From positions 310,001-374,000 of the forward strand of contig JASANH010000770.1 of the NCBI GenBank assembly GCA_030248295.1: a stretch of DNA of 64,000 bases. Reading direction: 5' to 3'. This document shows, piece by piece, positions 31,828 through 61,600 of this stretch. Within the stretch, counting starts at the first letter, position 1. Each line of letters opens with the position of its first letter. The notes beneath the pieces are model-generated. The model did no database searches and had not been told where the DNA came from. It worked only from the letters and a program-made list of their open reading frames with translations. Source of the stretch: Mesodorylaimus sp. YZB2_4. Lineage: Eukaryota > Nematoda > Enoplea > Dorylaimida > Dorylaimidae. The position numbers and the translations under genes are program-made.

Positions 31828-34800
31828 ATGACATCGCTTTCACCCGATGGACCTAATCCAGTCGGGACACAACCTCCAGCAGCCCAATCGGGTGCAATGC
31901 TGGAACCTGCACTTGGCAACATCCCGCGTAATTCATCGAGGTTTCTAGTGAACAAGGTGGAAGGCGAGGAAGCACCAGTGACACCTGATGTGCCCCCCGT
32001 GCCGCCTGGAGAGGACACCCCAATTCCTGAGCCGATCACACCACGTGGTGTCCATTTCCAAATGGGCGCGGAGAAAAATGGCGAACCAGCCAGTGATCAT
32101 CAACAGACATTGGGCAATGCGGCCACTTACGGAACCACAAATTTTAAAAGTTTCCAAGCTGTGCAGACGGTGGACAAAATACCCCATTTGGATCATTACA
32201 GGAATATTATGTCGGTACAAGGCGCCATGGCCACCAGACCAACCTTGCAGGAACTGCACGATGAACAGGATCACAGGGAGCATGAGGAAAAGCATAAGCT
32301 GCAGTTCGAACGATTCGGACATATAGAGGTGAGTGAGCGAGAATTGCCACCAGGTAACTTTTCTTGTCAATTAGAGCTGGTACCTACCACTAGTGGTGTA
32401 ATTCTGATGTGTGCCTGGACCCCCTGAGCTGATGACTTTGCCGAGTGCATGTTCGATCATGTGATGCACCAGCTCCTGCTGTAAAACAGTACAGCAACCT
32501 GACATTGAGTGCATTCATTGCGTGCGGGCATGGTCATTCACTAAGCTTGCCGATAGTATATGCAGCACCTATAGAAAATCGTTTCCTGAAAGCTAAACTA
32601 GCACGGGGGAAGGGGTAACCTTGAAGAAGGTGAGAGTGCTGTGATATGCAATCCCCATGTAATATAAGGTTGGCGTACTTCATTTTGCTCAGATCCGTAT
32701 AATTATTATACAAAATGCAAAAATCGAATTTTTAGAGACAGTTGAATTGCACGCACTTCGCGCGCTTTTGCCTGTGATGCGCAGGATAGCAGAGTACTGT
32801 AACCGCAACGATTTTCAGTAACAACTTGATCTTATGGGTGATTTTTGAAAAAAAAGTATCGCTTTCGCCAAATATGTGGGTCAACAATATGTGGCATATG
32901 TTTATATTTGGCAACGCTCCCATCTTTATGTTGAAACTTTGACGGCTCAATGGCAAGAAAATAAACTTTCAGACTATAAACTAAAAAGGGGGCGCGATAA
33001 TTTTTTATTGACGTCTGAAAATTAATACAAATGATTAATAGAAAATTTTGGAAAAGCAGAAATCAAAGCAGATGTATTCCTCTGCTAAAGCATATAAGTA
33101 CTGTATTTTTGTCGAAGTTGTCCGTAGCGTTTCAATACAAATTTCGAACTAAAAAATTATATCCCACCATTTTAAAATTACCCCTAGAATAAACAGTTGG
33201 TCTTGGGACCCAAAAGTTATCAATCTGTGGCATACTTTTTGCCAACTTTCGTGCTAATTTTATTCCATAAGATCGATTACGTTGTTAAATTTCGGAGACA
33301 CTATGAAAAAATAGCTCCCGTCCATTTCTTTTACCGATGTTACTGGAAATCGTTGCGGTTACAGTACTCTGCTAACCTTCGCATCACAGGCGAAAGCACG
33401 CGAAGTGCGTGCAATTCAACCTTCTCTGAAAATTTGATTTTCGCATCTGAGCAAAATAAAGTATGTCAACCTTATTTTACATGGTGACTCATATCACAGC
33501 AGTCTCACCTTCTTCAAGGTTACCCCCCTGATAGTATAGCCTAAACCATACCTACGTCCTCTGTTTCCTGTATCTTTTGTCGGAACGCCTTGTTTTATTG
33601 AGCAGGACCGACCCAAACACGTCACACAAAATAGTTGTGGCCACCAGATTTAGGTTTGGCGCGAAAGAAAATTGGTCTCATATAATTTTTAAAATACCAT
33701 ATAGAAATCTGCTTCTACGTTCGCAATATCCAGTATTTTCTGTTCGCATTGCTTTGTGTGCTCTGTGCTTCCTTAGCACAGATAGTGTACCCCTTCACAA
33801 TTCGTTCAGAGCGGAAAGAATTTGGAGCCAGCAGATCACCTTCAGCCGACCGTTGTTGGACAAAAATTTGGATGGATTCAAGGCGTCTTGGTAAGGATCG
33901 CGGTACTTCTGCTTGGTCTGACTAGACCTGAGTCAATCTACTTTAGATGCGATGCGTTCTAAGCATTCTCGGTACAATGCTCTATTTACGTATCAGTTGG
34001 GTGGCTGGTGCGGCAGGTATTGGTTTCGGCACACTGATTGTCCTGGTCAGCACGGTGGTTATCGTCATCACTTGCATATCCATGTGCGCCATTTGCACCA
34101 ATGGGGAAATCAGAGGTGGTGGGGCCTACTACATGATCTCGCGGTCACTGGGACCCGAATTCGGTGGATCGATAGGACTCATATTCAGCTTCGCTAATGC
34201 AGTGGCATCCGCTATGTGCGTGGTGGGCTTCGCTGAAGTGGTGCGGGATATGATCAAGGTGGGTAGGATTACTGCAGATTGCATGGAGCTGAAAAATTTG
34301 TGGAAATACTTATTCTCGCCTACGCAACTTCGCTAAATTATACTCTGACACAAGGGTGACTTCAAAATTCGGGCTTCGGAGGTTCTGCTGGAAGTGACAG
34401 CTAGAAGCAAAATGGGCCGTTATAGGCTCCAGTTTTTTATGGCCAACTGAAAGTACCTGATCGTAAATGGAAGCACAAAACTGGAAGCCCGCACTTCCAG
34501 TTGGTTCGCGTCCATCATTAGTGACCATACGCTCAAATGTTCTCAGCCGTCGGTCGAGACAAAGAGCCGTCAAATATCGTTGTGCCTGGATGTGTGCCTT
34601 TTTCTCTTACCTGTGTGTTTGTGATCCTGCGTTAGCAAACTTGGAAAAGTTTTAAAACATCCAGATTTCGATTTTCCGATTAAGGAAGAATGGACCAGAT
34701 TCAGAGTCTTTTCAAAGCAAGCCCAAATTCGAAGAGGTTTTTCTCTTTCACAGACACCTGAAAAGATCGGAGCCTTGCGTTAAAAAACAGGAGACTAAAC

Positions 34801-37800
34801 AGGCGTTAAAAATCAGGGTCTGTTTTGTGAATACATCCTAGCTGGCACTGACAATCGTTTTGCTAGGGCCACATTCGAGGGGTCTCTTTGTCTCCACTGA
34901 CCTGAGGGGGACGGCTCGAGCATGTGGCCACTTCTGTAAAAGCTAACCAACTGGAAGTGTTCGACGTTGCACTACCAGTTTGCCATCAAAAACTGGAACC
35001 TACCTGTATGGCCCCTCTTCCTTCCAGTTGCCTTTTCAAGCAGAACTTCCATCTGGAAGCTGTCCACATTTTAGAGGCTCTTTTTACTAAGTATGGGCAA
35101 GGTCGGCTGGGTTGTGTGCGGGGTTTTTGAGGAAGGGAGGAGGAAGAGATCAGATCAGATCAGATCGCCTAAGCATGATCTGATCGCGTGTGAGAAAGGT
35201 CAGGCCAGGTCAGGTTTGGGTCGAGTCGAGTGAATGAGTTGTATGATTGTTAACATAGAGTACTGTGGGCTGGCTGGACAATTGGTTGTGTGCTCGGGGC
35301 TTGCTCAGTCAGGTCAGGCCTTGGTCCAGCTCAGATATTTAATCGCTTTAGCTTGCTTCCTTTTCTTTCTTCCTGCTGGACCTGAGGGATTTTGAGTCCG
35401 TTCCGCACGCGCTATTGTTCGAGTGACCTGAGTCTGTTTCACACACAGCGTACTGTATATACTTATAGTACAGGCACGTTTTAAGAGTTTTATTTTTCAG
35501 AACTGTATCGATTTTACCTTTAATATTAAGCTTTGTCAAAATCATTCAACACCTAATTACGTTCATGATATCAGACGTTCACAATATCTTTGTCCCCAAT
35601 CCGATGGCGTATATAAGACAAATACTGCTCAATGCAATGGCAGAGAAGCCGCCTAACAGAGCCTTGCCCTTGCAATCTTTGCTCCTCGCAAGCAGTGCAC
35701 GTCCACACCGACTTCAAAATTCCATTCGCTTCATGAAAAGCCTTAGATCGGCGAAATAAATACAAATAACCCGGATTATGCGGGCACTGAACACGGACCA
35801 TCTCAGTTTTAAGAAACTTTGTGAGGACAACTTCTGGCACTCCAAAAGCCATGTTTTCAACTTAAATCAAAAACTTTACTCCAAGCCAGATTATGACTAT
35901 GGCGCTTTGACCAAGACTACTGCTGGCGGCAGCGTTGCCTATCTTTTAGCGTGTATGTAGTGTAATTATATACGCTCGCCTATCTCTTAACGTGCCTGTA
36001 GTATAAGTACAGTATATACGCCGCGTGCGGAACGGACGCAGGTCACTCGAACAATAGCGCGTGCGGAACCTGCAAACTCCCACCTGAGGTGGGGGGGGGG
36101 GGGGGGTTTGAGAGGAAGGGTTCAGTGCCCCAGCCGGCCCAACAGAGGCTTTACTCCGTCTACCCCTCCCCCCTCCCGCCCACACTTGATTTTCACACTT
36201 TCCCACCTGGACTCACGCAAATTCAGCCTAATTGCAGAACGAATACCAAGTGATCATCGTGGACGGCGAAGTGAACGATGTGCGCATAATATCCTACGCG
36301 ACCCTGGCACTCATCCTTTGCGTGGTTGTTGTTGGTGTATCGTTCGAATCGAAAGCCCAGTTAGTGCTCCTGGTTGTGCTGGCATTATCATTAGTCGACT
36401 ACCTTATCGGCACATTTATTCCACCTGACGAGGACAAACAGGCAAAAGGCATGACTGGCTATTCAATGGCAACTTTCGCTGAAAATTTTTTCCCGGATTG
36501 GCGAGATCAGACTTTCTTCTCGGTGTTTGCTGTCTTTTTTCCCGCCTGCACAGGTAAGACCTACAGTCACTACTTTCTTACATCATCAAAACCGCGTGCC
36601 TCATTTTAGGCATTATGGCTGGAGCTAATATTTCGGGTGATCTGGCAGACCCACAGTCGGCCATTCCGAAGGGCACTATGATAGCCATTATTGTTTGCAT
36701 GTTATTGTACATCGGAGCTATTTGGACGACTGGAGCCACCTTTGTTAGGTATGACGGTGTGACAGTGCTACTTTTAAGCAAGTGGTATACAACAGTCCTT
36801 GACACATTAGGCGGGCAAAGTTTGCTCTACCATTACAGACTTACATAGTTAGGCACCTAAACTAGTCAGCAATGTATGTAACAATCCTAAAATCTGTGCT
36901 TATACCATTTACCCGCACAGTATATTCCATGTATCAGTCCATTCGCAATGTTCGCGAGACCCGCGAAAAACCCTTGTTTCGAAAGTTTTCTCACTAATGC
37001 ACTATTACGCATCTCTGAGGAGCCTCTAGGAGCCTCTGAGGAGCCTAGGCGCATATGAGCACAAAGACCAGTGGGTTTTATGATATGCAAAAATTTTTAA
37101 CTGCCTCCTCAAAGATACGTGATACTTCATTATTGAGAAAGCTATTGAAACTAATACATATGACACGCAACTACACAATTAACAAAATCTAAAACACGTC
37201 TTTCAGATTACTACTGTATGATCACATTATTGATGGTACTTTTGCAGGGAAGCTGTTGGCAATTTCACCTCCTCGGCCCTCACGTTGTCAGAAGGGTCCA
37301 ATAGCACTGCTTCGGCCTTGCAGTATGGATTATTGCACAATTTTCAAATCATGGAAATATCTGGTGCCTGGCGTCCATTGGTGACTGCTGGAATATTTGC
37401 TGCTACATTGAGTTCAGCCTTGGCTGCCTTCGTCTCTGCACCTAAAGTCTTCCAGGTAAGGGCTCTATGCGATTTGTTTTTCAATTTCTGCCAGTTTAAC
37501 CTGGTCTAGTGTCAGCAGACCAGGCTGACACATTTGGCTTATTTTAATTTGCCACACTCCTTTTTCGAGCTGCAGGAATGCACACTGAATTCTTTTTTTT
37601 TAGGCTGTGTGCAAAGATCGGCTATTTCCTTATATTCATGTGTTTGCGAAAGGATATGGAAGAAGCGATGAACCAAGACTCGGCTACGTCCTTGCTTTCT
37701 TTATTGCTGTCGCTGTAATTGCCATTGGTATGCCCTCAGCAAATCCGCTACGTTTCTTATGTTCATAGCACTCCAGTTTTCAGGCTCCCTCAACGCGATC

Positions 37801-40800
37801 GCGCCAATAATATCCAATTTTTTTCTTATGTCCTACGCCCTGGTCAACTATGCGTGCTTCGATGCCTCATTCGCTGGTTCACCAGGATTCCGACCAGGAT
37901 TCCGCTTCTACAACAAGTGGGTGTCCTTGTTCGGGGCAGTGCTGTGCCTGGCAGTCATGTTCATCATCAGCTGGTGGAATGCACTGATCACGTTCGGATT
38001 CGTGGCTGCATTATATGTCTACGTATTACATAGGAAACCAGGTAAGGGCAGACAGAGCAGGTGGGACTTACTGTCAGCTGGGAAACGATGTGCGAGACGT
38101 CTTGGTGTTTGAAGTGCCTCACAGTCTTCTACGCCGGATACTGCTGTACCTACATAATGTCTGACACTAATCCTACCGGCACCTTGATGAATGCAAGATG
38201 TGTACAGAGCATGACAGGAAGAATGCCCATTGTCGATGTTGTGCGGAACGCAGTGGATGCTCTATCTTACAGTTTTACTTAGCTAGCATTGGTCGTGAGT
38301 CGTAACAGTGAAGGTTCAGACAGATGATACTCTGGGTTCCAGTGCGAGAAGCAGAAGATAAGAGGTAACAATACTTGCGAGACGCAACAAAGCAATCAAA
38401 GTCTTGCCTCTATTGATAATGTGACATTTAAACGTCTCCTCTCTTCTTCCTACAATTTTCTTCTCTCCACAAATTCCGCTTCATCTTATCACAATTAATA
38501 TATGAATAAAATCTCACCTTTTAGATGTAAACTGGGGTTCTTCGACACAAGCTCACGCTTACAAAGCAGCATTGCAGTCGGCCTTAAAATTAGCTTCAAG
38601 AGAAGAACACGTGAAGAACTATCGTCCTCAAATATTGCTATTGACTGGAAACCCAGTGGCTCGACCTGCCCTGGTTGATTTTGTATCCAACATCACAAAA
38701 GACAACAGCTTGCTCGTTTGCGGGCATGTGGTTCCTGTAAGTCATGATGAGTGCCTCAGTTTGCTCACCCCAGTGAAGCCCTTTTATATGCGTGGTAGAT
38801 GTACCCTACAGCCAAAGCATTGGCCTGCATAGAACGATGGTCGCGGCAGTTGTATGAATGGTTCGACAAGCGGAAAGTGAAGGCCTTCTACGTCGGTGTG
38901 GCGAGACCGAATCTCAGAGACGGGGTGCAATGTATTATGCAAGTGGCTGGACTGGGAAAGCTCAGACCGAACGTGGTCATGCTGGGATTCAAAAATAATT
39001 GGAGAGAGACCGCGCTGCAGGATCAGACCAATGTGGATTATTTCAACATTATTCAGTAAGAGTTTCTGTTGGCACGATTGTCTTTGGTGACTGCTAGGTG
39101 ACACAGACAATCCACAGGCATTCTGACCTACGACTGATAAAAGGATCCACTAACATTTAGCAGCCAGGAACCTACGATCAGGAGTTGCCCGTAGCTAAAA
39201 TTAAAGCAGCGGCCCTGAAGGCGCAGTTTAACTAAGCAAGTTAACTGATTGACTAGGAATATAGACATGTTCACAGCGAGAATAAAAGCCAGACATCTCT
39301 CTGCGGACAATCTGTGTTCGTAGTACTATGGCGGTTTCATGCAACAAATTTCCACAGCAGCCATGCTCTCATCAGTACCTACACTTTACACAGTAATTGC
39401 AGCATGGCATGAGTTGAACAGAATGCTGATTGTTGCACTACAGTAAGATAAAGAGACTGACAATTAGCCTAAATTTGTTTTGGCATGTTTCAGTGATGCT
39501 TTTGAAAACAACTGCGGTGTTGGCATTCTACGTTTACAAAATGGCTTGGACGTCTCGGAAATGATGTCAGAACACAATGTTGGGGACACAGAAAATTTGA
39601 AGCTCCCTGAACCAGCATACCGCACAAATATCGACGCAGCTGGTTCAGGCACTAATCTTATAATGGACAGCAAAGGTCAACTTTCTCCCGAATCAGAGTT
39701 ATCGGCGTCTCAACGACTGCTGAGGAGCAGAACAGACACTGATCGCGAAGCCCCAGCTACATCACTCACAAGCAAGATCTTCGGTGGAGTCATCAAAAGT
39801 TCTCACGGAAGCTTGAACAAAAACGGTTCGTCGGACATGGACGCTGAGGGGGGGAAAGGTGGTCAGGACGGGGCAGAAATGAAGCTGCTGAATGAGGAGC
39901 TGCTGAGCGACCAGGACAAAGATGATGGAGAGGGGAAGGACGAGGACGAGAATGAGGGAGAGGACACTGACGACATGGACAGACCTCCGACACCACCACG
40001 CGCCAGCTACTTGCGCAGTCGACGAATGACCAAGCAACAACGCGAGGTCTTGCAAATTATTGACCAGTTCAAAGCAAAAGTCAAGAAACCAGTCGTCCAT
40101 GTCTACTGGCTATTCGACGACGGAGGTGGGGAACTTGTAATATTCAGGATGCAGGAACCAAAATTTGAACATTTCAGGCTTGGGTTTACTGGTGCCTCAC
40201 TTACTCACAGTGCCTCGATCTTACTTGGAAAATGCTAAGCTAAGCGTCTTCACAGTGGCGGCCAGTCGCAGTCAGCTCGAGAGGGAACAAAGAAGGTACT
40301 GCATTAAAGGATGCACTTTTTGGGGGCATGAGAAAATTGTTTTCTTCAGCATGGCTGCCCTCCTGAGTCGATTCAGGATCGAGTACTCCGACGTGTTTGT
40401 CATACCCGATCTGGCAAAACGTCCGCAGCAGTCGACCATTCAGGAGTTTGAGTCATTTATCAGCCCGTTCAGAGCGCCACCACAACTCGATCACGGCGTG
40501 GGGAATGAAGAAAAAAGTCGTCCTGCACATGGATACATCACCGAGGCAGAGTACGCTGCATTGAGGACCAAGGTAAATGAGCCTTTTACTGTGTAGCCCG
40601 AGCTGGGACAAAGTGAGTGGATATCGCCATCAGATTTTTTTAATAATAACTGTGGGCTTGTATATTTGCGCACACTTACATCAGAAACTGATGCTCGAAG
40701 GCTCATTTTTACTGGTCACCAAGTTCTCTGCGACATAGCGGCGCACTGGTTGGAATGGTCCCAAATTGTCATGTTCGAGGATCACTGTGCTCTGTCCTAG

Positions 40801-42556
40801 ACTTCACTGGACCCTGAAAACTCGGAGACCAGTATAAATGCACCAAAATCAGGAAAATGAGGATAAAAGCGACTAGGCCCAGGCGCTAGTACTGAGTTCC
40901 CGATCAGCGTCCCTGCGCGCTCTGTCCCTGCGTTTTTGCACAAAAAGTCAAAGTTTGTGCAAAAACGCAGGGACCCATTTGTAACGATTCCAAAAATCGA
41001 CGATCACCTCTAAAATTTCGAACAAAGTGTTAGCCGATGCAGTTTTTAGTGCTGAATCCAAAAATGAAGTTAAAATGTCGGTTTCAGAGTGATTTTGACC
41101 AGTATCTCCTCATTTTCTGAACCTAGTTTTTCACCTTGATCTGAGCCCACTCTATGACGCTCAGATCATTGGCTATGTCTGATTTATTGATCATGTTCTT
41201 GAATCCGGGTATTCGATTGATCATTGCGACCATTCTATTAGTCAATATGATCGATCTGATCATTTCCCAGTTGATCATTTCTATCAATCGATTGATTGAT
41301 TAACTGGGTGATCGATTCCATGATTTTTATTCGTATCGGCCGTATCAATATTTTCAAATTACCTCAATCTGATCGATCAAATGCACTACAGCAAAGCAAT
41401 TGTGCATACAATTATCACATTGTTCTGTTTTCGTGTATTTCTAATCGTACAGGATCTCTGGGCTGTCTGGACCCGATTTCCGTCATTTCCGACTGGTTTG
41501 CGCCGCGCCTCTTTGGGTAAAGAGCAGAAAATATTTTCCTCTAAGGCTGCGCCTTTGAAAACGAAGGGACAGAGTCCCAGTTTCTAAAAACTCAGGACAG
41601 AGCGCTCTGGATCAGGGACTCTGGGAGGCAGTGCAAACCTTCTCTCACAATCAGGCCCAGAGTGGCAGAGAACTGTGTCCTGAGCGCACTGTCACAGAGA
41701 ACTCCTTGGCCAGTATAAATGAGCCTTGAGCGTGGCAGTAGCGCTCTTCTATCTGTTTCGTTGGCAACGTTTGGGGGCGCAGTGTAGGCAAAGCAACATT
41801 TTTGAAGCGGTGGGTTACAAAAACCATTCAACTATCTTTTTTCATTCGTTTTCCGTTTTCTCTGGATCTGCCATCTTAGGTTTTGGTACGGGATCAACAG
41901 GACTTGCAACTCCCATTCCAGCGGCTGCCCTTTACCCCCGTTCCTCCGTGCATGCCTTTTCTAATCACACAAAAAAACTCATTATCTCAGGTACTATCTG
42001 TTTTCTTTGGGAATGTACACGCGGCCTATGCGGTAAAGTGGAAAGCGTGTATATTATCTTCGCCGGCCTCGTGGCCTGGTGGGTTAGGCGTCTGCCTCTC
42101 ACGCCGCGCGCAGTTACAAGCGAGTGTTCGACTCGCGGGCCGGTAAATCATTTCGTGTAAAATGTGTCCCTCGCCCTCGAGTGCGCGTAAGCGTTTGGTG
42201 ATGTGGTAAAACATGAACATGAACATGAACATGAAAGAAAACAGGTTATTGATAAAGTTAAAGTTTTTTGCCTCCAGTGAGCTTCCTCTATGTTTATACT
42301 AGGATCGCATAAATACCAACGTCACTTTTCTCACATTTAATACTTCTTTTAGACTTATCGTCAGCTACGAATACGAGAAAAATTATTGGAGAATTCGTCG
42401 GATGCGACCTTGATCGTTGTGACCCTTCCTGTGCCCAGACGTGGTATTCTGACTTCCAGCCTATATTTAGCTTGGTTAGACTTTATCACAAAAAGTCTTC
42501 CTCCCGTGCTTTTGTTACGAGGGAACCAGCAGTCTGTTCTGACATTTTATTCATAA
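31828..42556 (+). CDS. SLC12A-type Na-(K)-Cl cotransporter, copy 1
   Basis: Electroneutral cation-chloride cotransporter of the plasma membrane. Fourteen exons join in phase to 1194 residues: 31828-32328, 33810-33890, 33947-34258, 36238-36553, 36610-36748, 37248-37455, 37604-37727, 37784-38041, 38525-38736, 38799-39055, 39494-40125, 40178-40295, 40350-40572, 42353-42556. The N terminus carries SPAK/OSR1 docking RFLV (38-41) and the phospho-regulatory [14 protein letters not shown]. The TM core has [39 protein letters not shown] and [15 protein letters not shown]. Sequons NFT and NST lie in the TM7-8 loop. The long C terminus ends [10 protein letters not shown], as in NKCC/NCC. At Cys285 (34217-34219) the K+-coordinating TM3 tyrosine of NKCC is replaced; the TM1 Asn is Ser200. 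A long acidic linker is in exon 11. Confidence 0.95.
32606..33529. mobile_element. fold-back element with inverted repeats over 200 bp (copy 1 intron 1)
   Basis: GGGGTAACCTTGAAGAAGG at the left is mirrored by CCTTCTTCAAGGTTACCCCC at the right. The match continues through TTGAATTGCACGCACTTCGC and CAGAGTACTGTAACCGCAAC (left, 32744-32810; right arm in reverse complement, 33345-33425). The arms fade towards the middle. There is no coding capacity. Confidence 0.8.
34371..35061. mobile_element. inverted-repeat element with CTGGAAG-rich arms (copy 1 intron 3)
   Basis: The left arm GGTTCTGCTGGAAGTGAC ... GGCTCCAGTTTTTTATGGC is matched in reverse complement by the right arm (GCCATCAAAAACTGGAACC ... 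AACTTCCATCTGGAAGCT). It is absent from the much shorter intron 3 of copy 2. Confidence 0.65.
35380..36090. mobile_element. inverted-repeat DNA element (copy 1 intron 3), possible transposon relic
   Basis: The left arm CCGTTCCGCACGCGCTATTG...CGAGTGACCTG...ACTGTATATAC is mirrored by the right arm at 35990-36075. The interior has a minus-strand frame of 93 codons (35571-35852) with Cys pairs (WTCTACEEQ) that may be a fragment of a captured or transposase zinc-binding segment; I cannot assign it. A 16-base G-run abuts the right end (36091-36106). A short GATCA repeat lies just upstream (35148-35166). Confidence 0.6.
40924..40974. repeat. perfect 21-bp inverted repeat (hairpin) in copy 1 intron 13
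   Basis: Arms 40924-40944 (starting GTCCCTGCGTTTTTGCAC) and 40954-40974 are exact reverse complements around a 9-base loop. They lie in a region (about 40790-41730) with other CTCTGTCC/GGACAGAG inverted matches, so this may be part of a larger decayed element. Confidence 0.8.
41993..42250. mobile_element. small MITE split by a SINE B insertion (copy 1 intron 13)
   Basis: The left part (41993-42057) and the right part (AAAGAAAACAGG to about 42250) match the intact 86-bp MITE at 27312-27397. Between them sits the SINE B copy. The homologous intron of copy 2 lacks both, so they came after the duplication. Confidence 0.75.
42062..42235 (+). repeat. SINE family B, best copy, tRNA-derived
   Basis: The head GCCGGCCTCGTGGCCTGGTG (A-box region) pairs in sequence with CGCGGGCCGGT further on. 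The B box is GTGTTCGACTC. The body includes CCCTCGAGTGCGCGTAAGC and TTTGGTGATGTGGTAAAAC, ending in a (ACATGA)n-type simple tail. Confidence 0.75.
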
Positions 42557-42793
42557 CTTGACTGAAGCGTATTTTTCTGAAGAATATGGTATACATAGTT
42601 GTTGGTAGCTGCTAGAGAGGTTCTTGATAGTAATATTGGGAATAGTAAGAAAGGGTGCAGGTTGTTATGCAGACTGTGCTAGTACATGTTGCGACCTGTT
42701 TATCTTTGGGAAATATCAACGGATTTGTGCATGAAAAACGTTTTATGTGCGAAAACGAGTTTTTATAGTCTTGAATATTGTTATTTCGGCTCA

Positions 42794-45334: not shown

Positions 45335-48300
45335 ATGACATCGCTTTCACCCGATGGACCTAATCCAGTCGGGACACAACCTCCATCAACCCAATCGGGT
45401 GCAATGCTGGAACCTGCACTTGGCAACATCCCGCGTAATTCATCGAGGTTTCTAGTGAACAAGGTGAAATGCGAGGAAGCTCCAGTGACACCTGATGTGC
45501 CGCGTGGAGACGAGACTCCAGTTCCTGCACTGATCACACCACCAAATTTTCAATTGGGCATGGGCAAAGACAGTACAACGCCTGGTAGTCTTCAAGAAAC
45601 ATTGGACCATGTGGAAAGTTATGAGGCAGCAAATTTTAGAAGTTTTCGAGCTGTGCAGACGGTGGACAAAATACCCCATTTGGATCACTACAGAAATATT
45701 ATGTCGGTGCAAGGCGCCATGGCCACCAGACCAACCTTGCAGGAACTGCACGACGAACAGGATTACAGGGAGCATGAGGAAAAGCATAAGCTGCAGTTTG
45801 AACGATTCGGACATATAGAGGTGAGTGAGCAGTGCCGGACGACTCCCGTCTTGTAGGTGACTCCCGACTCCAGGTTACTGACGAATCCTTCATAAAAGTA
45901 CTAAGATACAATTTCAGTGGGATATATGACCCAGATTCTGGTCGCTTATACGCGTCCTCCTGCATCTGCTAATGATCGCTTGCCCATCAGTCACCTTTTC
46001 TTATCTGGTGGAAAAGCTAAAAAATATTGTTTTGCAATAAATGAGCTGAGTCCTCTGGGCTGTACCACTGGGAGTTGTTGCCAGAATGACAAAAATCTTA
46101 AGGAGAAGGCATATTATTAGATTGATTTTGTTCCCTCGTTTCTTTTAAGCACTTAATCCTGTTTGTGGTATAGTCACATCTCATTAGTCTCAGGATCACT
46201 TCTGTTTCTGACTGATTGGTGGTTTTTCCTTTAAAGTTTTACTGCCAGTTTAGAGCGGATAGTGTACCATGTAACTCCTATGCGAGTGGATGGACCCCCA
46301 GGTAATGGCCCTGTCGAACTGAATGCTCCTATCGTAAGCCAATGCAGCATCCTGATATTGAGTGCATTCGTGACATGGAGGCATGGCCAAATGATTTGCT
46401 AGCTTGCTACTAGCTGCTCCAGCATCTCCTCTTATGTTTAGTGAGAATGCCAAGTTTCATGGTTATAGACGCCCAGAACCCAGTCATACAAAGTGGTGAA
46501 ACAAAACAGTTGTGGCCACTAGACTGGATTTAGTTTTGGGGGCGCCAAAGGCCATGTGAACCTGCAATATATTTGGAAACTGTCATCTGCCTGACCAGAG
46601 GATGGTTCAAGCCATAGGACCCAGCCCACGCGGTCCACGGCACCTCGATTCCTATTCCACCAACACATTCTAAACAGCGCGTCTTTGATCCTCTGCGCTT
46701 CCTTCGCGCAGAAACAGTGTCTCTCATCGTCAGATCACACTCAATTCACTAACTTTTCTCAGAGCGCAAAATATCTGAAGCAAGCAAATCACTCCATACA
46801 ACCGATCATTGGTAGACAAAAGTTTGGGTGGATTAAGGGCGTCTTGGTAAGAGTCTTCTTTCACCTCTGCAGTCGAAGCATGACTCACAATCAGCCATCT
46901 TCAGATGCGATGCGTCCTAAATATTGTCGGCACAATGCTCTACATACGTATCAGCTGGGTGGCCGGCGTGGCAGGTATTGGTTTCGCCACGCTGATCGTC
47001 CTGGTCAGTACGTTGGTGATGGTCATCACTTGCATATCCATGTGCGCTATCTGTACCAATGGAGAAATCAGAGGTGGTGGGGCCTACTACATGATTTCGA
47101 GGTCACTGGGACCCGAATTCGGTGGATCGATAGGACTCATATTCAGCTTCGGCAATGTTGTCTCGTCCGCTCTGTGCGTGGTCGGATTTTCTGAAGTGGT
47201 TCGAGACTTGATCAAGGTGGGTGAGACTGTGCTGAACTGTATTGAACTGTAGATTGCGTGAGAAAGACGGTGAGCTCAAGTCATGCGGCTTGTTCTTTAG
47301 CTCTGACATAGAAAGCGCACAGACGCACAAAACACACTCTAGGCGCATTCTGGATTTGGCATCTTTAAAATGGTGTTTTGATCGTAATCTAACCACGCCA
47401 GGTAGTCCATGGCGATGGGTCCATGGGAGAGTAATCGATACTCCCCTGGCTGGGAGACGTCAACTCCTCGGGTTGATGTTTCAGTTGTAGGTATGGTCGC
47501 AAGACTTGCCTGCTCCAGTCGGAGTTTTTGTACCGCTGACTTCGGTTGGCCACCTCCCTCCTACGCCCGCCAGGCTTGGTTACAGTAAGCAAAAATTCAG
47601 TCCCATTTCAGAACGAATACCAAGTGATCGTCGTGGACGGCGAGGTGAACGATGTGCGCATAATATCCTACGCGACCCTGGCCCTCATCCTTTGCGTGGT
47701 TCTTGTTGGTATCTCGTTCGAATCGAAAGCCCAGTTAGTGCTCCTGGTTGTGCTGGCATTATCATTAGTCGACTACCTTATCGGCACATTTATTCCACCT
47801 GACGAGGACAAACAGGCAAAAGGCATGACTGGCTATTCAATGGCAACTTTCGCAGAAAATTTTTTTCCCGATTGGCGAGATCAGACATTCCCTTCAGTGT
47901 TTGCTGTCTTTTTTCCAGCTTGCACAGGTGAGGGCTACCATCACAATTCATGCAGCTTCAGAAAACACGTGCCTCATTTTAGGCATTATGGCTGGAGCTA
48001 ATATTTCGGGTGATCTGGCAGACCCACAGTCGGCTATTCCAAAGGGCACTATGATTTCCATTATTATTTGCATGCTCTTGTATATTGGAGCCATTTGGAC
48101 GACTGCGACCACCTTTGTTAGGTAGATGTTAGATTTTCGATACCTAGACAGCTGATGCGCAACAAACGACCATGAAGCAATATGAGGGCAGCTTTGTCGA
48201 ACCATTACAGCTATTTACAGCTGGACCAGACATCAAAGTACTAGCTCTAGAAAACTATGTTTATACCCTTTTTCAGATCCAAAGTCTTTCGCAAACACCA

Positions 48301-51300
48301 CAGACATCTCTTTTCATGCTGCACATACTGCATATTGTATACTGTATACTCAATGTGCACAATGTATATGTATATCAACTACTTCCTCGGGTACCACTCC
48401 TGCATTAGCCTCCTTGAAATTTTCTTGGGAAAGGAATTACAGGATTAGAATTCAACAATCAATGGTTTTGAACGTTTTCTCAAAAAGTAATGCTAATTAA
48501 AAAGAGTACATACAGTGGGCAGTGCGTTTGAAAATTGCATAGAGCAAATGATGGAAAATTTTATGTGTAGTGCACCATTGACCAAATACAGTATGCACAT
48601 ATACAAGGGGGGGTAAGAATGTAGGAGGTAAGAGCCCTAGTAGACGATTCCAACAAGGTCATCATAAGGTGTCTAAGGCGGCTGCGGTGGTGCAGGCGGT
48701 CAGGCATCTCTCCAAACTGCTTGAGAGCAAAAGGCTGGACTCGTCCTGGGTTCAACCCCAATGATGGAGGTCGGTTTGCGAACCATGCACGCCAGGCCGG
48801 CCACCACGCCCTCGCTGACCATGCACGCCTGGCCGTGGGTCCGAGTGGAGAGACAGGAGCTAAACGTGTGGCTGTCGAACAGCGACAGGATTCAAAGCCC
48901 ACCCGCCATGGTCTGCGGAAGTCAGTGTCCTGTCCTGGATGATCTCGTGTGGAGGTGCTCCTAGTGAAGACACGCCGAGGGACTCTACGCTGCTGTGTGT
49001 GCTAGTCCCCACACAGCCGAGCTTATCAGGTTTGACTGCAGGCCGGCTATTGGCAAAAAGGGCTCCGGCCCAAAAAAATTAGAAAAGAAAGAGGGTTTGA
49101 GTAATTGCATACTGTTAAGAAGAATATACCTATCCGTACAGGTCATGGTAAGAGACTTATGTTTTCATTCACAGATAACAGAATCCAAATTAAGTTCTCG
49201 GCATGGTTATGATTATACTTGATATTTTACAGGGAAACCGCTGGCAACTTCACCTTCTTGGCTCTCGGCTTGTCGGACGGGTCGAATAAGTCGAATAGCA
49301 CCGCTTTAGTCTCGCAGTATGGATTATTGCACAATTTTCAAATCATGGAAATATCTGGTGCCTGGCGTCCATTGGTGACTGCTGGAATATTTGCTGCTTC
49401 GTTGAGCTCAGCCTTGGCTGCCTTCATCTCTGCACCTAAAGTCTTCCAGGTAAGGGCTCTCTAAGTACGGTTTTTCGCAATGCATTGAACCTTCATCCGG
49501 TGTTGACGGACCAGGCACGCACCTGACTTCAGATACTAGCCATACTTCTTGTTTCCGAGAAGGAGAAATCCAACCGTATGAATTCTACCATATATCTAGG
49601 CTGTGTGCAAAGATCGACTATTCCCTTATATTCATATATTTGGAAGAGGATTTGGAAGAAACGATGAGCCAAGACTCGGCTACATCCTTGCTTTCATCAT
49701 TGCTGCCGCTATCATATCCATTGGTTAGTCCACACTAATCGTAATTACAGTGCAGTACGATCCAGTTTTTCAGGCTCCGTAAATGGAATCGCGCCAATAA
49801 TATCCAATTTTTTCCTGATGTGCTACGCTCTGGTCAACTATGCATGCTTCGATGCCTCATTCGCTGGTTCGCCAGGATTCCGACCGGGATTCCGCTACTA
49901 CAACAAGTGGGTGTCCCTGTTCGGGGCAGTGCTGTGCCTGGCAGTCATGTTCATCATCAGCTGGTGGAATGCACTGATCACGTTCGGATTCGTGGCTGCA
50001 TTATATGTCTACGTATTATACAGGAAACCAGGTGAGGAAGCCGGACTGATTTGAGTGGTGCTGCGTGAGTTGGTGCTAATAGGTGATTGATGACAATCGC
50101 TCCAAGGCATGGGACCCATTTAAAGGGGATGGATGGCGATCCATCCCCTTTATCGATCGATTGATCGAGCCCTAAAGTCATGCTGATCATGAACCTAACA
50201 TCATGAACTTCTGTTGTTTTAGACGTAAACTGGGGGTCATCGACACAGGCCCACGCTTACAACGCGGCGCTGCAATCAGTCTTGAAACTAGGTTCCAAAG
50301 ACGAGCACGTGAAGAACTATCGTCCGCAAATATTGTTGTTGACTGGAAACCCAGTGGCCCGACCTGCTCTGGTCGATTTTGTATCCAACATCACAAAAGA
50401 CAACAGCTTACTGATTTGTGGACATGTTGTTACGGTAAGTCCTCTCGGTTGAGGGCATCGTACCTGACGTTCATACAGCTAACTAAACCTAAAACTGAAA
50501 CTGATTCCATCAGCTAACTGAATCGTTTTAATTCAGTGAACTGTACAAATTACAACTCGTTATAACTCACGATCACTTCAAACGCGAATATAAAAAGAGG
50601 GTTTCTTTAACTACAATCACTTTGTTGACAAAAATTTTGAAGTTTATCTCCTTGATCTAAGGTAGCCTTCCCAACAGACGTAATCGGTGATTGCAATTTG
50701 CCCCAGTTGCAAAATAACCTTTTTGCAAAATATCAGCTCGACTGGTCAGCGCCTAAAGTCCTGTGGGTTTTTGAGTTCTTGTGTGGTAAGGAGACAGAGT
50801 GTTGCAGAAAACTCGCAGGGTTTTTCTAAACTCAGCTTCTGGGTTTGGGGTCCGTGTTCTAGCACTCGGGGATCAGGTTTTCCCACAAAAAAACCGACAA
50901 AGCAAAAAGACTTACAAATCCGCAGAGCCTTGTGCGCTAACTGCTGCTGGCCAGTTTTGCATCTTTAAAAATTACAATCATTGGTTACGTGAAGTTCGAC
51001 TAACAGCTAGCAAGGTTCCCGTTGAACTCTAAATACAAAATTGTGGTATCTGAGTATAAAACTGGAGAATTTAGCTCGCCGAGATTTCAAACAATAACTA
51101 GCTAAAAACTTTTTTGGAAATACCGGATTATTCAGGTAAATTCATTGAATTAATTTTTTTGAGTTAAGTTAACATTAACTGCAACTGAATCTTTTTTCGA
51201 AAACTGTATCAACGCTACATCAGACCAGATGCTTTATTATGCGCTGTATGTCCACGTATTAGATGGAACCAACTGCCAGACTCCTGGCTTCCATCGAGGG

Positions 51301-53892
51301 ATGGTCGCGGCAATTGGACGAATGGTTCGACAAGCGGAAAGTGAAGGCCTTCTACGTCGGTGTGGCGAGACCGAATCTCAGAGACGGGGTGAAATGCATT
51401 ATGCAAGTGGCTGGACTTGGAAAGCTCAGACCGAACGTGGTCATGCTGGGATTCAAAAATAATTGGAGAGAGACTGCGCTGCAGGATCAGAGCAATGTGG
51501 ATTATTTCAACATTATTCAGTGAGAGTTTCTGCTGGCATGATTGTGTTGGTTGGCGTACAGGGTGGGACATAAATCTTGAAACAACTTTGAGGATCAAAA
51601 GAAAATCAAAAATTAGCGATAGAGTCTAATTTTCTTTTTAAACACTTGAAAATTATCGGATCAGACATATGGATCTTCAAAGTGCAACAACTGGCGCATT
51701 CGCCGCATTCCCGTGAGAGTTTAAAGCTGCCTTGTTTCAAGACTTATGTCCCACCTTGTACATTAACCGACCACAGCCATCTCTGAACTCTGATCCATGT
51801 AATGGTTCATAATCAGGTACCTATTATCAGGATTAACCATACCAGGAATCATACTAGCCCCTAAAGGCGCGTTTGATGAAGCAAGTGAATTGATTGGCTT
51901 GATAAGAGAACTGAACATGCGCACACGGAGAGTTGAAACTAGGCGTGTCCGTGCGAGCAGCCACTTCTTCACCTTACAACTAAACTTTTATGCAACAAGT
52001 CTCCAAAGCAGTCGTGCTCTTTTCCAGATCAACATTAGTAATGCTCAACAGATTAGGTGATGTGCAAGACGTGTACTCCAGTCAGACAAACAGACTTTTT
52101 GACATGTTTCAGTGACGCCTTTGAAAACAACTGCGGTGTTGGCATTCTACGTTTGCAAAATGGCTTGGACGTCTCGGAAATGATGTCAGAACACAATGTT
52201 GGGGACACAGAAAATTTGAAGCTCCCCGAACCAGCATACCGCACAAATATCGACGCAGCTGGTTCAGGCACTAATCTTATAATGGACAGCAAAGGTCAAC
52301 TTTCTCCCGAATCCGAGTTGTCGGCGTCTCAACGACTGCTGAGGAGCAGAACAGACACTGATCGCGAAGCCCCAGCTACATCACTCACCAGCAAGATCTT
52401 CGGTGGAGTCATCAAAAATTCTCACGGAAGCTTGAACAAAAACAGCCCGTCGGACATGGACTCTGAGGGGGGAAAAGGTGGTCAGGACGGGGCAGAAATG
52501 AAGCTGCTGAATGAGGAGCCGCTGAGCGACCAGGACCAAGATGATGGAGAGGGGAAGGACGAGGACGAGAATGAGGGAGAGGACACTGACGACATGGACA
52601 GACCTCCGACACCACCACGCGCCAGCTACTTGCGCAGTCGACGAATGACCAAGCAACAACGCGAGGTCTTGCAAATTATTGACCAGTTCAAAGCAAAAGT
52701 CAAGAAACCAGTCGTCCATGTCTACTGGCTATTCGACGACGGAGGTGGGGAAACTTGTAATTTTCAGGATGCAGGAACCAAAATTTGAACATTTCAGGCT
52801 TGGGTTTACTTGTGCCTCACTTACTCACAGTGCCTCGATCTTACTTGGAAAATGCTAAGCTAAGCGTCTTCACAGTGGCGGCCAGTCGCAGTCAGCTCGA
52901 GAGGGAACAAAGAAGGTACTGCATTAAAGGATGCACTTTTTGGGGGCATGAGAAAATTGTTTTCTTCAGCATGGCTGCCCTCCTGAGTCGATTCAGGATC
53001 GAGTACTCCGACGTGTTTGTCATACCCGATCTGGCAAAACGTCCGCAGCAGTCGACCATTCAGGAGTTTGAGTCATTTATTAGCCCGTTCAGAGCGCCAC
53101 CACAACTCGATCACGGCGTGAGGAATGAAGAAAAGAGTCGCCCTACGCATGGATACATCACCGAGGCAGAGTACGCTGCATTGAGGACCAAGGTAAATGA
53201 ACCTTTCACTGTGTAGCCTGAGCTGGGACAAAGTGAGTGGATATCGCCATCAGATTTTTTAAAGATAACGCGCTGCACTTAAGATAGAGACGCTGTGCTA
53301 TAACGATAAAGATAAGCACTGCGTTTTTTGTTTGTTACGTGCAACATCTGAGAGCACAATACGGTTAAAATCAGAATGTTGGGGTTGGTTGGATGCAACA
53401 AACACCATGTAATAGTCGTTTTAATGCACTCGTTCTCTCTGACTCGGGTGTATAAAGGGAAGCGTGATTAGGGAAACATCCTCTCCCTTCCTCCTCCATG
53501 CATGCCTTTTCTAATGACAAAAAAAAACAAGATTTTAATATCTCAGGGAGAAAAAGTTTTAAAACTGAGCTGAATGAAGTTTAATTTTTTGTCTTGCAGT
53601 GCGCTTCCTCTGATCACATCAGACAAATACCATCATTGCTTTTCACGCATTCAGCCCTCTTTTCAGACCACAGTTTATTACTTTTCAGACTTATCGTCAG
53701 CTACGAATCCGAGAAAAATTATTAGAGAATTCGTCGGATGCGACCTTGATCGTTGTGACCCTTCCTGTGCCCAGACGTGGTATTCTGACTTCTAGCCTAT
53801 ATTTAGCTTGGTTAGACTTTATCACAAAAAGTCTTCCTCCCGTACTTTTGTTACGAGGGAACCAGCAGTCTGTTCTGACATTTTATTCATAA
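45335..53892 (+). CDS. SLC12A-type Na-(K)-Cl cotransporter, copy 2
   Basis: Same family and role as copy 1. Fourteen exons in the same phases give 1193 residues: 45335-45820, 46763-46846, 46905-47216, 47612-47927, 47983-48121, 49233-49449, 49600-49723, 49774-50031, 50223-50434, 51263-51519, 52113-52744, 52798-52915, 52970-53192, 53689-53892. RFLV docking is at 38-41; PHLDHYRN is kept. The TM3 K+-site tyrosine is Cys281 (47175-47177), as in copy 1, but the TM1 Asn is retained (N196). The N-terminal loop differs from copy 1 around residues 55-100 and lacks the TPRGVHF segment. Exons 11-14 and introns 11-12 are nearly identical to copy 1. The exon 10 donor is CA|GTGAGA, so the TGA there is intronic and not a stop. 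Confidence 0.95.
48677..49086 (+). repeat. SINE family A copy (copy 2 intron 5)
   Basis: GCGGCTGCGGTGGTGCAGGC head, TGGGTTCAACCCCAATGATG B-box region, the GGAGGTGCTCCTAGTGAAGA body and an AAAAAAATTAG tail match the copy at 12783, with internal rearrangement of the middle. Confidence 0.7.
50121..50152. repeat. 14-bp palindrome with 4-base loop (copy 2 intron 8)
   Basis: TAAAGGGGATGGAT, GGCG, ATCCATCCCCTTTA: perfect arms. It is followed by a GATCGATTGATCGA run. Confidence 0.85.
51559..51758. mobile_element. 200-bp Tc1/mariner-type MITE (copy 2 intron 10)
   Basis: Starts CAGGGTGGGACATAAATCTTG and ends CAAGACTTATGTCCCACCTTG, inverted repeats flanked on both sides by TA, the target duplication used by Tc1/mariner elements. 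No such insertion is in intron 10 of copy 1. Confidence 0.8.
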
Positions 53893-54115
53893 CTTGACTT
53901 GTGCTTGTTTTTTTTTAAAATGAGGTATACTTACTGTAGTAAGATAGGCACTGGACAGTTTCACAAACGTATGGGTGGGAATATGAAGGAGCTGTGCAAT
54001 ATGAACAGATCACAACATGTGGCAGACCGTGATCTGTTTATGTATGCGGAATATGTACGTGTACGCGGATGTGAGAGAACGAGTTTTAATAGCCTTTCAA
54101 TGTTATTCCAGGTCC

Positions 54116-54121
54116 AATAAA
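54116..54121 (+). terminator. polyadenylation signal of cotransporter copy 2
   Basis: AATAAA 224 bases after the stop, in a context (GAACGAGTTTT, then TGTTATT) aligned to that of copy 1. Confidence 0.65.
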
Positions 54122-55228
54122 ATCCCTAGAAGTTTGCGCTATAGGTTGTAGATTGCAGCCATATTCTTCTTGTCAATAAACATGTTTGTCGCAATATCCA
54201 AATTTGTCTATCACTGGAGCTAAACTAAAAAAGTTTTGGACCCACAAATGTGTGCCCATCACGGGCTTTGCTTTACACAATGTACATGCTTAGAGACAAC
54301 ATGACCGCATGAACGGAAAAAACTATGCCATGGTAAAATTTGTGCATTTGTATGGGCAGTGCTGACGATTCTGATCAATGCCTCATTAACCGTGTAATTT
54401 TTTCGAAAAGTGTGGATATCGGGTACTGTGTCCAGCATAGTGAGCTCAAAGATATTATTGTCTCATTTGCAGCTCTGCTCGATAATGTTTTTATTGCTCC
54501 AATCTGCTGCAGGTTCACCTGCACCATGGCCTAATTTGTTGATTTACACCAACCTTAATAGAAAAACTTGATTTCCAAGATGATTTTTCATCATGCAACA
54601 CGCGCCTGCTTATCTGTTTTCTATGCACGGCAGTGCGTGTTACGACGGACGTGCTGTTCAGTAGAGTCAACAAAGCCGAGTCGTTCCTAAGCCAAGGTAT
54701 TACTTCCGTGTCGCAGGGACAACAGTGGACGATATTCGTGAGTAAGTGAATTCTAAGCTTGTTTTATCGACTCTGGTAGGTTCATGACCCTGAGATGAAC
54801 TCATTACAAAATGTACTGTAAGTCGTATGTACAGTATGTTACAACAAAATAAAGACGCGGTGTCAAAGTGTGGCATGGCAGGTAGCCACGTTTGCAGCTC
54901 AAATTCTATTCTTATCTATTTTATTGAGAACGATTTAACACGGATCAGTGGATATCGTTATGAGATCCACTTAACAAGGTCTTTATGAGTCACCCCAGCC
55001 TAGTGGGAATGAAGGTGTCCTTGCACGCGAACGTACTGAGCATTTTGTACAATTCATATAATTCTCTGCTCCTGTCTGATATGCAAAAAATAGGACGATG
55101 CCACGATTCAGCTTAAAATAAGGCTTGTTTTCATGCGCTGAGGTGGTGATTCGCAATGCAGCATGCTTTATGCAGGTAAAATATCGAAGATAATGGTCTA
55201 AGTTGAGGCTAAATTGCACGATTATGAG

Positions 55229-55507
55229 TCGATTTCCCCACTGAGACGATTCCCCCACTGAGACGATTCCCCCACAGAGACGATTCCCCCACTGAGCCGA
55301 TTCCCCCACTGAGCCGATTCCCCCACAGAGACGATTCCCCCACAGGGACGATTACCCCACAGAGACGATTCCCCCACAGAGACGATTCCCCCACAGAGAC
55401 GATTCCCCCACAGAGACGATTCCCCCACAGAGACGATTCCCCCACAGAGACGATTCCCCCACTGAGACGATTCTCCCACTGAGACGATTCCCCCACAGAG
55501 ACGATTG
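55229..55507. repeat. 17-bp minisatellite, about 16-17 units
   Basis: The unit is ACGATTCCCCCACAGAG with a CTGAG variant. Because 17 is not a multiple of 3 and the unit has no minus-strand stops, long minus-strand frames (repeating GESSLWGNRLCGGIV) result. They are artefacts of the repeat. Confidence 0.9.
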
Positions 55508-56639: not shown

Positions 56640-56672
56640 GCACTCGACGAGATTCAGCTCTTCGTCGAGTGC
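56640..56672. repeat. 11-bp perfect hairpin
   Basis: GCACTCGACGA and TCGTCGAGTGC flank an 11-base loop. Its role is unknown. It is not a histone-type 3' stem-loop. Confidence 0.7.
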
Positions 56673-58688: not shown

Positions 58689-61600
58689 ATGGCATCAATT
58701 TCTTCCGACCAAGCCAATCCGAACGACCCATCGTCTTCTCCTAATATGTCAGTGGAAGCTAATCAAGCCGAAGATATTCCACGAAATGAATCAAGATTTC
58801 TTGTGAACAAAGTGGAAGGCGATGAAGGCTCAGCGACACCCGACTCATCACCGTCGCCACCTGAATCGATTCCCCGACGAGGTGTCCATTTCGAATTGGG
58901 TGTGGCCAAAGATGGCGCAGCTCCTGGTGATCACCAACAAACATTGGGCAATGATGGAACAACGAACTTAAAAAGTATTCAAGCTATGCAAACGGTGGAG
59001 AAAATACCACATGAGGACCACTACAGGAATATTATGTCGGTACAAGGTGCCATAGCCGCAAGACCAACTTTGCAGGAATTGCACGAAGAGCCGGAACATG
59101 GGAAGCGTGAAGAGGAACATAAGATACATTTTGAACAACTCGACCAGATGGAGGTGAGTGGGAATAAAATGCTGAAAATTCATGACTCTAAACTAATGAC
59201 TGTCTGGTCCCTGCAAGGGGTTTCGTAGGAGTGCTAACGATTCCTTCCTCTGTCCATGTTTTACTAGTGCAATCCTTGGCTCGTATAAATCAGCCTGAGG
59301 GGTTACAGTAGGTTAGTCTATCACATGGCGCTCGGTATGGCTGATGTTGTGTAACAGTCTGTTTCATGAAGCTCAATGACACTGGGCCGCGGAAGAACGA
59401 GATGTTCCCCTCTTCAACATCTGCCATCAGCTTAGAATGTACAGTATCCCCGTGGACGGGAGCAGTCGAAATTATATCCCTCCTGGGAGTAGTCAAGAAT
59501 ACAATAGACCATAGTTAGGACGGGGCTGCAAGAACCGTCTTTTCTCCCCACACCAGATGGTGCAAATGCAAACCTTTCCGCGTGGATAGCCGAGATCTCT
59601 ACAGCATATGGCCTGGCATGTGCCCGCTGTGTTCGAGGTGCCTCTTATGGAACATCGAGCCAGCGAGCTTATTGAATTCAAGGGTAAAAATTATCTAAAG
59701 CTTCTTGAGTTATTAGGACTCGTTTGCTGACACGCTTACAGAACTGATCTCTGTCAAATAGGACCCCCAAAGATGTGAAAGAACCTTGACTTTTCAGGAA
59801 CTCGTGTTACGATCTTTTTTTTAAGAGCGGCAAGAAGCCAGATCCAGTCGATAAGCCACAAACCAAATCAGGAGAAAAGTTCGGATGGATTCAGGGCGTC
59901 TTGGTAAGGATCATGGTAGTTCTGCTTGGTCTGACAAGACCTGAGTCAATCCATTTTAGATGCGATGCGTGCTGAGCATTCTGGGCACAATGCTTTATTT
60001 ACGTATCAGTTGGGTGGCTGGCGTGGCAGGCATCGGCTTCGGGTTGTTGATCATCTTAGTCAGCACAGTGGTGATCAGCATCACTTGCATATCCATGTGC
60101 GCCATTTGCACCAATGGAGAAATTAAAGGTGGTGGGGCCTACTACATGATTTCCAGGTCACTTGGACCCGAATTTGGTGGATCGATAGGAATAATATTCA
60201 GCTTGGCAAACGCTGTGGCATCCGCCATGTACATCGTGGGCTTCTCAGAAGTGGTGCGGGATATGATGAAGGTGGGTGAGGATGCTGTATCCTGCTTGCT
60301 TACTTTATTGGGCCCGTAATTTTGATCTAAAGACATCTGCTATACTGCTTTACCTGAGTTCTGGAAATCACTATGGACTATTCATTTAAGCTTTCACATA
60401 CTGTAGTTACGTGTCCCCAGTTACACAAAATTTCAAATGTGGTCTTCCGAAATCGTATGCCATGGGGCTTATTACATACCCATAGGGGAATAGACAAGAC
60501 GTAAAGGGCCATAGGACCTTACATCGGGACGAAGATGTTGTGGGCAAGCTTTAGCTATGACACAATGAATCAAAAGGGCTTTGGTTTTTTCGCTCCTCCT
60601 AAAGGATGTTCGATCGAAAGTTAAAACACTCTCACTCAGCTACTGGCTCAGGCCTAGTTATCAACCGTCTGCAAGTCAAGAGGGCTTTGATTCTGTTTCA
60701 GAACGAATTCCAAACGACCATTGTTGACGGAGATGTCAATGACGTCCGCATTATATCCTATGCAGCGCTGATTCTTATTTTTTGTGTTGTTATTGTCGGC
60801 GTTTCGTTCGAGTCAAAATTGCAAATAGTCCTGATGGTCGTGCTGACCATATCATTGTTGGACTACATTATCGGAACATTCATACCCCCCAGCGATGAGA
60901 AACAGGCGAAGGGCATGACTGGTTATTCAATGTCAACTTTGACTACAAATTTTTTCCCAGATTGGCGAGATCAGACTTTCTTTACTGTCTTCGCCGTCTT
61001 TTTCCCAGCATGCACAGGTAAGTGCCACAATCACATTATTTTCTAGGCAGAGATGTCACCTGAATATGTATTGTAAACGAAGAAAACATCCAAACATGTT
61101 ACTGTTGATCTTCAGGAATCACTGCTGGAGCGAATATTTCGGGTGATCTAGCAGACCCACAATCGGCGATTCCAAAGGGGACTATACTGGCTATTATTAT
61201 TTGTATGTTTATCTATGTCGGAGCCACTCTGACGACTGGAGCTACCTTCGTAAGGTGAGTACACACTGGGAACAGAGTGTGCCACGACTCGATAGTTGGC
61301 TGGCACACGCAGTACGCATGCCTGGTGACTGTACAGCACTGTGCGCATCGCCATGTACAGTTTGCCTGCATGAAATATAACCCAATCGGCGGATGTCGTG
61401 GGTTTTCTAAGCCTCTACATGCTGTACTCATACTCATATTTTACTCATCGCCCAAGCAAATACATGCACTCAAGGAGCGAAAGACACGATGAAACATACA
61501 CAGATTACAAGGTGTGTTAAGTTGTTAGATTGTGTTAAATACCCAGATTAAAAGAAGGTTTTTGAAACCAGCTTACCTGCTGTAAGATTTCTGCAGTACA

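Follow-up and report, generated by a model that had tools for sequence, protein, structure and literature searches.

Cysteine in place of the K+-coordinating tyrosine in a tandem array of N(K)CC-type SLC12 genes of a dorylaimid nematode

The window analyzed here is a stretch of 64,000 nucleotides from the nematode Mesodorylaimus sp. YZB2_4 (assembly GCA_030248295.1, contig JASANH010000770.1, positions 310,001 to 374,000 of the forward strand). It holds three of four tandem SLC12 genes of the N(K)CC type and lies within a 1.3-Mb contig, C10, of the 145-Mb assembly. At the position of Tyr383, the tyrosine of transmembrane helix 3 (TM3) that coordinates K+ in NKCC1, copies 1 and 2 encode cysteine and copy 3 encodes tyrosine; copy 4, just beyond the window, encodes cysteine again. 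The genes and the exons that carry this codon are as follows, in window coordinates unless a contig is named.

31828..42556, + strand: copy 1, SLC12 N(K)CC-type, Cys at the Tyr383 position; 14 coding exons modeled, TAA stop after 42553 (spliced alignment, Pfam)
33947..34258, + strand: copy 1 exon 3 (TM1-TM3), codon 91 TGC at 34217-34219
45335..53892, + strand: copy 2, SLC12 N(K)CC-type, Cys at the Tyr383 position; spliced alignment, model free of internal stops
46905..47216, + strand: copy 2 exon 3, codon 91 TGC at 47175-47177
58689..64000, + strand: copy 3, SLC12 N(K)CC-type, Tyr at the Tyr383 position; exons 1-10 inside the window, remainder to about C10:376705
59960..60271, + strand: copy 3 exon 3, codon 91 TAC at 60230-60232
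C10:381058-381369, just beyond the window: copy 4 exon 3, Cys at codon 91

We modeled the four copies by spliced alignment with a purpose-written aligner, and N-terminal, TM, and C-terminal domains were modeled for each of them, the last running up to the stop codon. The exons of copy 1 score 42.2 bits for AA_permease_N, 73.8 for AA_permease, and 53.2 for SLC12 in Pfam (cutoffs of 21, 24.6, and 27, respectively), with AA_permease_N and SLC12 at opposite ends of the gene; exon 3 of copies 2 and 3, the part of those copies that was scanned, also passes the AA_permease cutoff. Against the PDB, the TM domain of copy 3 scores 529 bits with NKCC1, 456 with the best NCC chain, and 227 with the best KCC chain, and exon 3 of copies 1 and 3 ranks the families likewise, with NKCC/NCC above KCC. 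The TM domains of copies 1 and 3 share 82% identity. The ratio of nonsynonymous to synonymous divergence (dN/dS) between pairs of the four copies lies at 0.16-0.22 for the whole coding sequence and at 0.11-0.19 for the TM exons, values that suggest working genes; the array looks intact and appears to be under purifying selection. A few junctions are less secure. In the array models, uncertainty attaches to exon 2, to where exon 9 ends, and to the junctions of exons 13 and 14: in copy 1, exon 2 (33846-33890) is a weak model, and exon 9 ends (38730) at a poor donor, the real exon probably being 6 nt longer; in copy 2 the exon 1/2 and exon 13/14 junctions are approximate; and the model of copy 4 has no start. 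In the copy 3 model, which runs on past the window, a single in-frame stop lies next to a 14-nt piece that was forced into the exon 13/14 junction there; we take it to be a putative modeling error.

The third coding exon is 312 nt long in copies 1 to 3. Codon 91 corresponds to Tyr383, since the third exons of copies 1 and 3 match residues 293-396 of human NKCC1 (7d10_A) in a gap-free alignment, and exon 3 of copy 2 aligns without gaps to the other array copies, so it falls in the same column. Codon 91 reads TGC, TGC, TAC, and TGC in copies 1, 2, 3, and 4, respectively. In NKCC1 the hydroxyl of Tyr383 coordinates K+ together with N298, I299, P496, and T499, and the Cl- next to K+ is held by three residues, residue 302 among them (PMC7889885). 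Copies 1 to 3 keep the Na+-site residues L297, A610, S613, and S614, the K+-site partners I299, P496, and T499, the tyrosine Y686 of the second Cl- site (Cl2), and the gate pair R307/E389. Other core residues have changed: at V302, in the first Cl- site (Cl1), every array copy has Thr; copies 1 to 3 have Leu or Val in place of W300; and L502 is Thr in copy 3. Residue 298 is Ser in copies 1, 3, and 4 and in a dispersed gene on contig C142, and copy 2 keeps Asn298 despite its Cys383. The original prediction, made from the letters of the window, had placed two TGC codons and one TAC codon at codon 91 of exon 3 and identified them with the K+-coordinating tyrosine of NKCC-type genes; the codons and their coordinates are correct, the alignment puts them on Tyr383 and not on another TM3 position, and the PDB scores agree with an NKCC-type assignment. 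Its further statement that all copies keep the rest of the transport core is right for the Na+ site, I299/P496/T499, Y686, and R307/E389, but does not extend to residues 298, 300, 302, and 502.

With exon 3 of copy 3 as query, at least 34 matches were found in the genome; we grouped them into genes by hand, and at least 15 of these genes are of the N(K)CC type. The Na+-site serines of TM8 (S613 and S614), a mark of Na+-coupled N(K)CC-type genes, are present in all 15; P496, T499, R307, and E389 are likewise retained in 15 of 15, and A610 in 14. Tyr383 is missing from 12 of the 15. His is encoded in seven genes (CAY; C13b, C10b, C6a, C6b, C26a, C26b, and C281), Cys in four (TGC in copies 1, 2, and 4 and TGT in C142), Tyr in three (TAY; copy 3, C61, and C13a), and Asn in one (AAC; C17), and every non-Tyr codon is a single nucleotide change away from TAY. 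The loss of tyrosine is not the event within the array alone that had been proposed, given the Cys of C142 and the 12 genes lacking Tyr. A tree of the 15 genes suggests more than one origin of the NCC-like His in this family. Partial models are those of C10b, C6a, and C61, and Y686 lies beyond the C6a model; the models of C13b, C17, C26a, C26b, and C281 contain one to four stops in forced pieces, and we make no claim for the integrity of these genes. Outside the 15 stand C81, C30, C26:440490, and C47 (Tyr at the column), which are putatively KCC-like, together with C105 (Ser) and C461, which ends short of the column. The gene with Asn383, L020 (C17:345169-351650, minus strand), is a very divergent N(K)CC-type gene in which several ion-site residues are altered together (Thr610, Phe686, and Val299 besides Asn383). 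Two further neighboring pairs of N(K)CC-type genes were seen, L014 and L015 (C26:16847-24178 and 31116-39769) and L018/L019 on C13, the latter differing at residue 383 (Tyr and His).

Among the best 80 of 242 confirmed prokaryotic loci, the Tyr383 column is Tyr in 80 of 80, versus 3 of 15 genes here; the loci were ranked by similarity to copy 3, itself a Tyr gene, so a mild bias toward Tyr is possible. Residue 383 is not part of the patterns used in that search, though one pattern prescribes 7 of the 27 conserved columns (349-354 and 356), a conserved column being one in TM1-TM3 with the same residue in at least 95% of the 80 prokaryotes and in human NKCC1. Columns 383 and 302 are the two of the 27 retained in just 3 of the 15 genes, and the next most altered, 354 and 356, are retained in 9 of 15 with mild changes (Y/F and I/L). 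Residues 302 and 383 covary in part: Val302 accompanies Tyr in C61 and C13a, Thr302 accompanies Cys in four genes and Asn in C17, and Ala302 accompanies His in six genes, with Val302 plus His in C13b. Copy 3 is the sole gene of the 15 to combine Thr302 with Tyr383, Thr302 being otherwise found in non-Tyr genes. With tyrosine in 80 of 80 prokaryotic relatives, the pattern at codon 91 is, on this comparison, not due to chance. For 149 aligned homologs of a plant cation-chloride cotransporter, N, S, E, Y, and H are listed at this position, and no Cys (PMC11641049), and our literature search, based on partial texts, turned up no natural Cys at the Tyr383 position, though a report of one may exist.

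Exchange of sequence among the array copies appears to have touched this codon. Three features bear on exchange within the array.

34187..34254, + strand: copy 1 exon 3 nt 241-308, identical to copy 4 and covering codon 91; gene-conversion-like tract
39478..40643, + strand: copy 1 exons 11-13 with introns, homogenized C-terminal block, 97.5% identical to the block in copy 2
52097..53263, + strand: copy 2 partner of the homogenized block

The tract of 68 nt shared by copies 1 and 4 is their longest identical stretch and spans 23 matching variable sites out of 81, a run that none of 20,000 shuffles equaled in length (six pairs tested). Over exon 3 as a whole, these copies differ at 28 of the first 156 positions and at 4 of the last 156 (Fisher P = 7e-6, with the halves picked after the data were seen). 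The tract looks like gene conversion. The C-terminal parts of copies 1 and 2 were probably homogenized recently, also by gene conversion; other blocks of these two copies are 72-92% identical.

Over the coding sequence, synonymous divergence between pairs of array copies is 0.22-0.91. Against each of the array copies, C142 shows full or near saturation of synonymous sites, with synonymous divergence either not computable or 2.3-2.7 (exon 3, copies 1 and 2). The full-length DNA tree groups the four array copies (100/100) and leaves C142 outside, as does the protein tree of the C-terminal part (100/99) and, weakly, a protein tree of the TM part built from fewer genes with a simpler model (80/69); the N-terminal part gave no resolution. 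A single clade of the four Cys genes was rejected by the approximately unbiased test (p-AU of 0.00013 for full DNA, 0.045 for TM DNA, and 0.029 for full protein). Amino acid patterns over all sites favor the array clade at 20 sites, the Cys clade at 10, and a pairing of copy 3 with C142 at 2. Because the DNA trees place C142 outside the array, they require two changes or a reversal: either Cys arose twice, or it arose once before the array formed and copy 3 reverted to Tyr. On the DNA and full-length trees, these tests support two or more changes at codon 91 within the set of five nearest genes, although they fall short of proof. The DNA and full-length protein trees used for the Cys-clade tests do not fix the branching order of copies 3 and 4. 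The C-terminal protein tree joins copy 3 to copies 1 and 2 (84/90), suggesting that copy 4 branched first; if it did, reversal would be one step cheaper than independent gains of Cys.

What the substitution may mean for transport is suggested by the residues that stay and the one that goes. Across the family the K+-coordinating side chain of Tyr383 is replaced in 12 of 15 genes while the Na+-site serines, Pro496, and Thr499 are retained, and the TM1/TM6 pocket of the Cys copies would hold K+ weakly or not at all. Since their Na+-site and gate residues are kept, the Cys copies may be read as working Na+-Cl- cotransporters with weak or no K+ coupling, and copy 3, C61, and C13a would keep Na+-K+-2Cl- transport; we favor this reading tentatively and rate it a little below an even chance. 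In human NKCC1, Y383C, Y383W, and Y383F are reported to impair transport (PMC7889885, citing earlier work); replacing the equivalent tyrosine of mouse KCC4, Y216, with A, F, or H leads to a loss of activity (PMC7200160); and in NCC, which carries His234 there, Na+ occupies the place of K+ near that residue (PMC9645730). With less certainty, the array ancestor would already have had Cys, and copy 3 would have returned to Tyr. A fuller scenario makes codon 91 a switch of ion coupling, in which Tyr was lost to Cys, Cys was homogenized by gene conversion, and copy 3 regained both Tyr and K+ coupling, with Cys a third natural solution beside Tyr (K+) and His (NCC); this we regard as doubtful. The earlier suggestion that copies 1 and 2 are altered in K+ coupling is plausible in light of the impaired human mutants, but a single residue is no proven switch. 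Nor is copy 3 securely the unchanged, conventional copy that it was taken for: it has Thr302 in common with the Cys genes, and on the DNA trees a reversal from Cys to Tyr needs no more steps than repeated changes from Tyr to Cys.

Several observations count against this reading, in both its functional and its historical part. NCC H234Y gains no K+ transport and is unstable (PMC9645730), so K+ coupling is not determined by residue 383 alone. K+ might also still be bound, since the remaining K+ ligands known from NKCC1 are either conserved or contribute backbone carbonyls. The TM-domain protein tree of the 15 genes unites the Cys genes (94/88, or 89/87 with column 383 removed) and sets copy 3 outside them; the array clade is not rejected on it (p-AU = 0.246). 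On that tree, which in contrast to the DNA trees agrees with the view of copy 3 in the original prediction, copy 3 would simply have kept Tyr and one codon change would suffice. Because the tract shared by copies 1 and 4 includes codon 91, the history of the codon may also differ from that of the genes. The TM-domain tree and the shared tract feed an alternative history that we consider to have nearly an even prospect of being right: the Tyr of copy 3 would be ancestral, and Cys would have appeared either independently in C142 and in the lineage of copies 1, 2, and 4, or a single time in the array with later transfer by gene conversion. Such a history also fits the amino acid patterns of exons 3-8, where 9 sites favor the Cys clade, 5 the array clade, and 2 copy 3 plus C142, and the Tyr of C61 and C13a. 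It sits poorly with the full-length and DNA trees, which put C142 outside the array and reject the Cys clade, and with the presence in copy 3 of Thr302, elsewhere confined to non-Tyr genes.

The weak or absent K+ coupling that we favor for the Cys copies has further competitors. The Cys copies may still move Na+, K+, and 2 Cl- with changed affinity, backbone carbonyls and Thr499 holding K+ and Ser298, Leu300, and Thr302 compensating for the lost hydroxyl. The retention of P496 and T499 in all 15 genes accords with this, as do data from mouse KCC4, where Y216F gave 62% of the wild-type signal over a mock background of 38% and I132S and P429H were not significantly below wild type (PMC11994965). 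Yet Ser298 and Thr302 also occur in the Tyr-bearing copy 3 and so are not specific to Cys, copy 2 pairs Asn298 with Cys, and human NKCC1 Y383C is reportedly impaired (PMC7889885); we hold this explanation to be unlikely, if worth taking seriously. These cotransporter proteins form dimers, and the Cys copies could be non-transporting proteins retained as partners or regulators of other cotransporters. Laboratory substitutions at this tyrosine do cost much activity (PMC7889885 and PMC7200160), but the Cys genes retain the Na+ site, the Cl2 tyrosine, and the gate residues, and the dN/dS of 0.11-0.19 in the TM exons of the array also speaks against a loss of transport, which we consider quite improbable. 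An assembly or haplotype artefact, with the copies being alleles or errors, is extremely improbable given four copies in order on one 1.3-Mb contig, their synonymous divergence of 0.22-0.91, and a Cys encoded by TGT on another contig, C142.

Other features were seen in and around the array. Upstream of it lie pieces of a myosin head domain (window 5426-5740 and 7000-7344), and a minisatellite with a 17-bp unit in 16.5 copies separates copies 2 and 3 (55226-55506). Intron 1 of copy 1 contains a pair of inverted repeats (32711-32822 / 33339-33450) that is possibly a mobile element, as are dispersed repeats of about 300 bp at 12770-13118, 25752-26123, and 48706-48992. COX1-like pieces occur on C73 (forward and reversed), C273, C741, C47, and other contigs and represent mitochondrial insertions or misassembly. 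The COX1 locus gives a sensible reading under mitochondrial code 5 (AGR=Ser and ATA=Met). A search for Chitin_bind_4 gave no match, but it gave none in any of 14 control genomes either and is no sign of absence.

Among known transporters, NKCC1 (SLC12A2) is the closest point of comparison. It is the best PDB match of the copy 3 TM domain, and the array shares its Na+ site (A/S/S), P496, T499, Y686, and gate residues. The array differs from it in having Cys for Tyr383 in copies 1, 2, and 4, so that within the array the K+-coordinating TM3 tyrosine by which an NKCC is recognized is found in copy 3 only, and in having Thr for V302 in all four copies; the present genome also differs in the size of its N(K)CC-type family, 15 genes or more. 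NCC (SLC12A3) resembles the Cys copies in that it naturally lacks the K+-coordinating tyrosine but retains the Na+ site, and seven paralogs in this genome share its His. The array itself has Cys or Tyr in place of the His that marks NCC, and the TM domain of copy 3, the sole one scored, is nearer to NKCC1. Extra genes for putative Na+-coupled cotransporters are also known from Aedes aegypti (aeCCC2 and aeCCC3, compared here by description only), which has three putative Na+-coupled genes, with aeCCC2 giving a Na+/Li+ conductance in oocytes (PMC6468792). In a copepod, ion-transport gene families are reported to be expanded, with NKCC among the families mapped, and another copepod has one NKCC paralog (PMC11706791). 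In a comparison that is not systematic, 15 or more N(K)CC-type genes is high against the copepod and Aedes counts and makes for a large family in an animal. The basis of the K+ requirement of SLC12 carriers is unsettled, as Tyr or His tracks K+ use and yet NCC H234Y shows no K+ transport (PMC9645730). The family described here offers a natural series of Tyr, His, Cys, and Asn at a position whose side chain seems rarely to change elsewhere, and a single genome thereby supplies matched natural pairs differing at residue 383, Cys included, with which the K+ rule can be tested.

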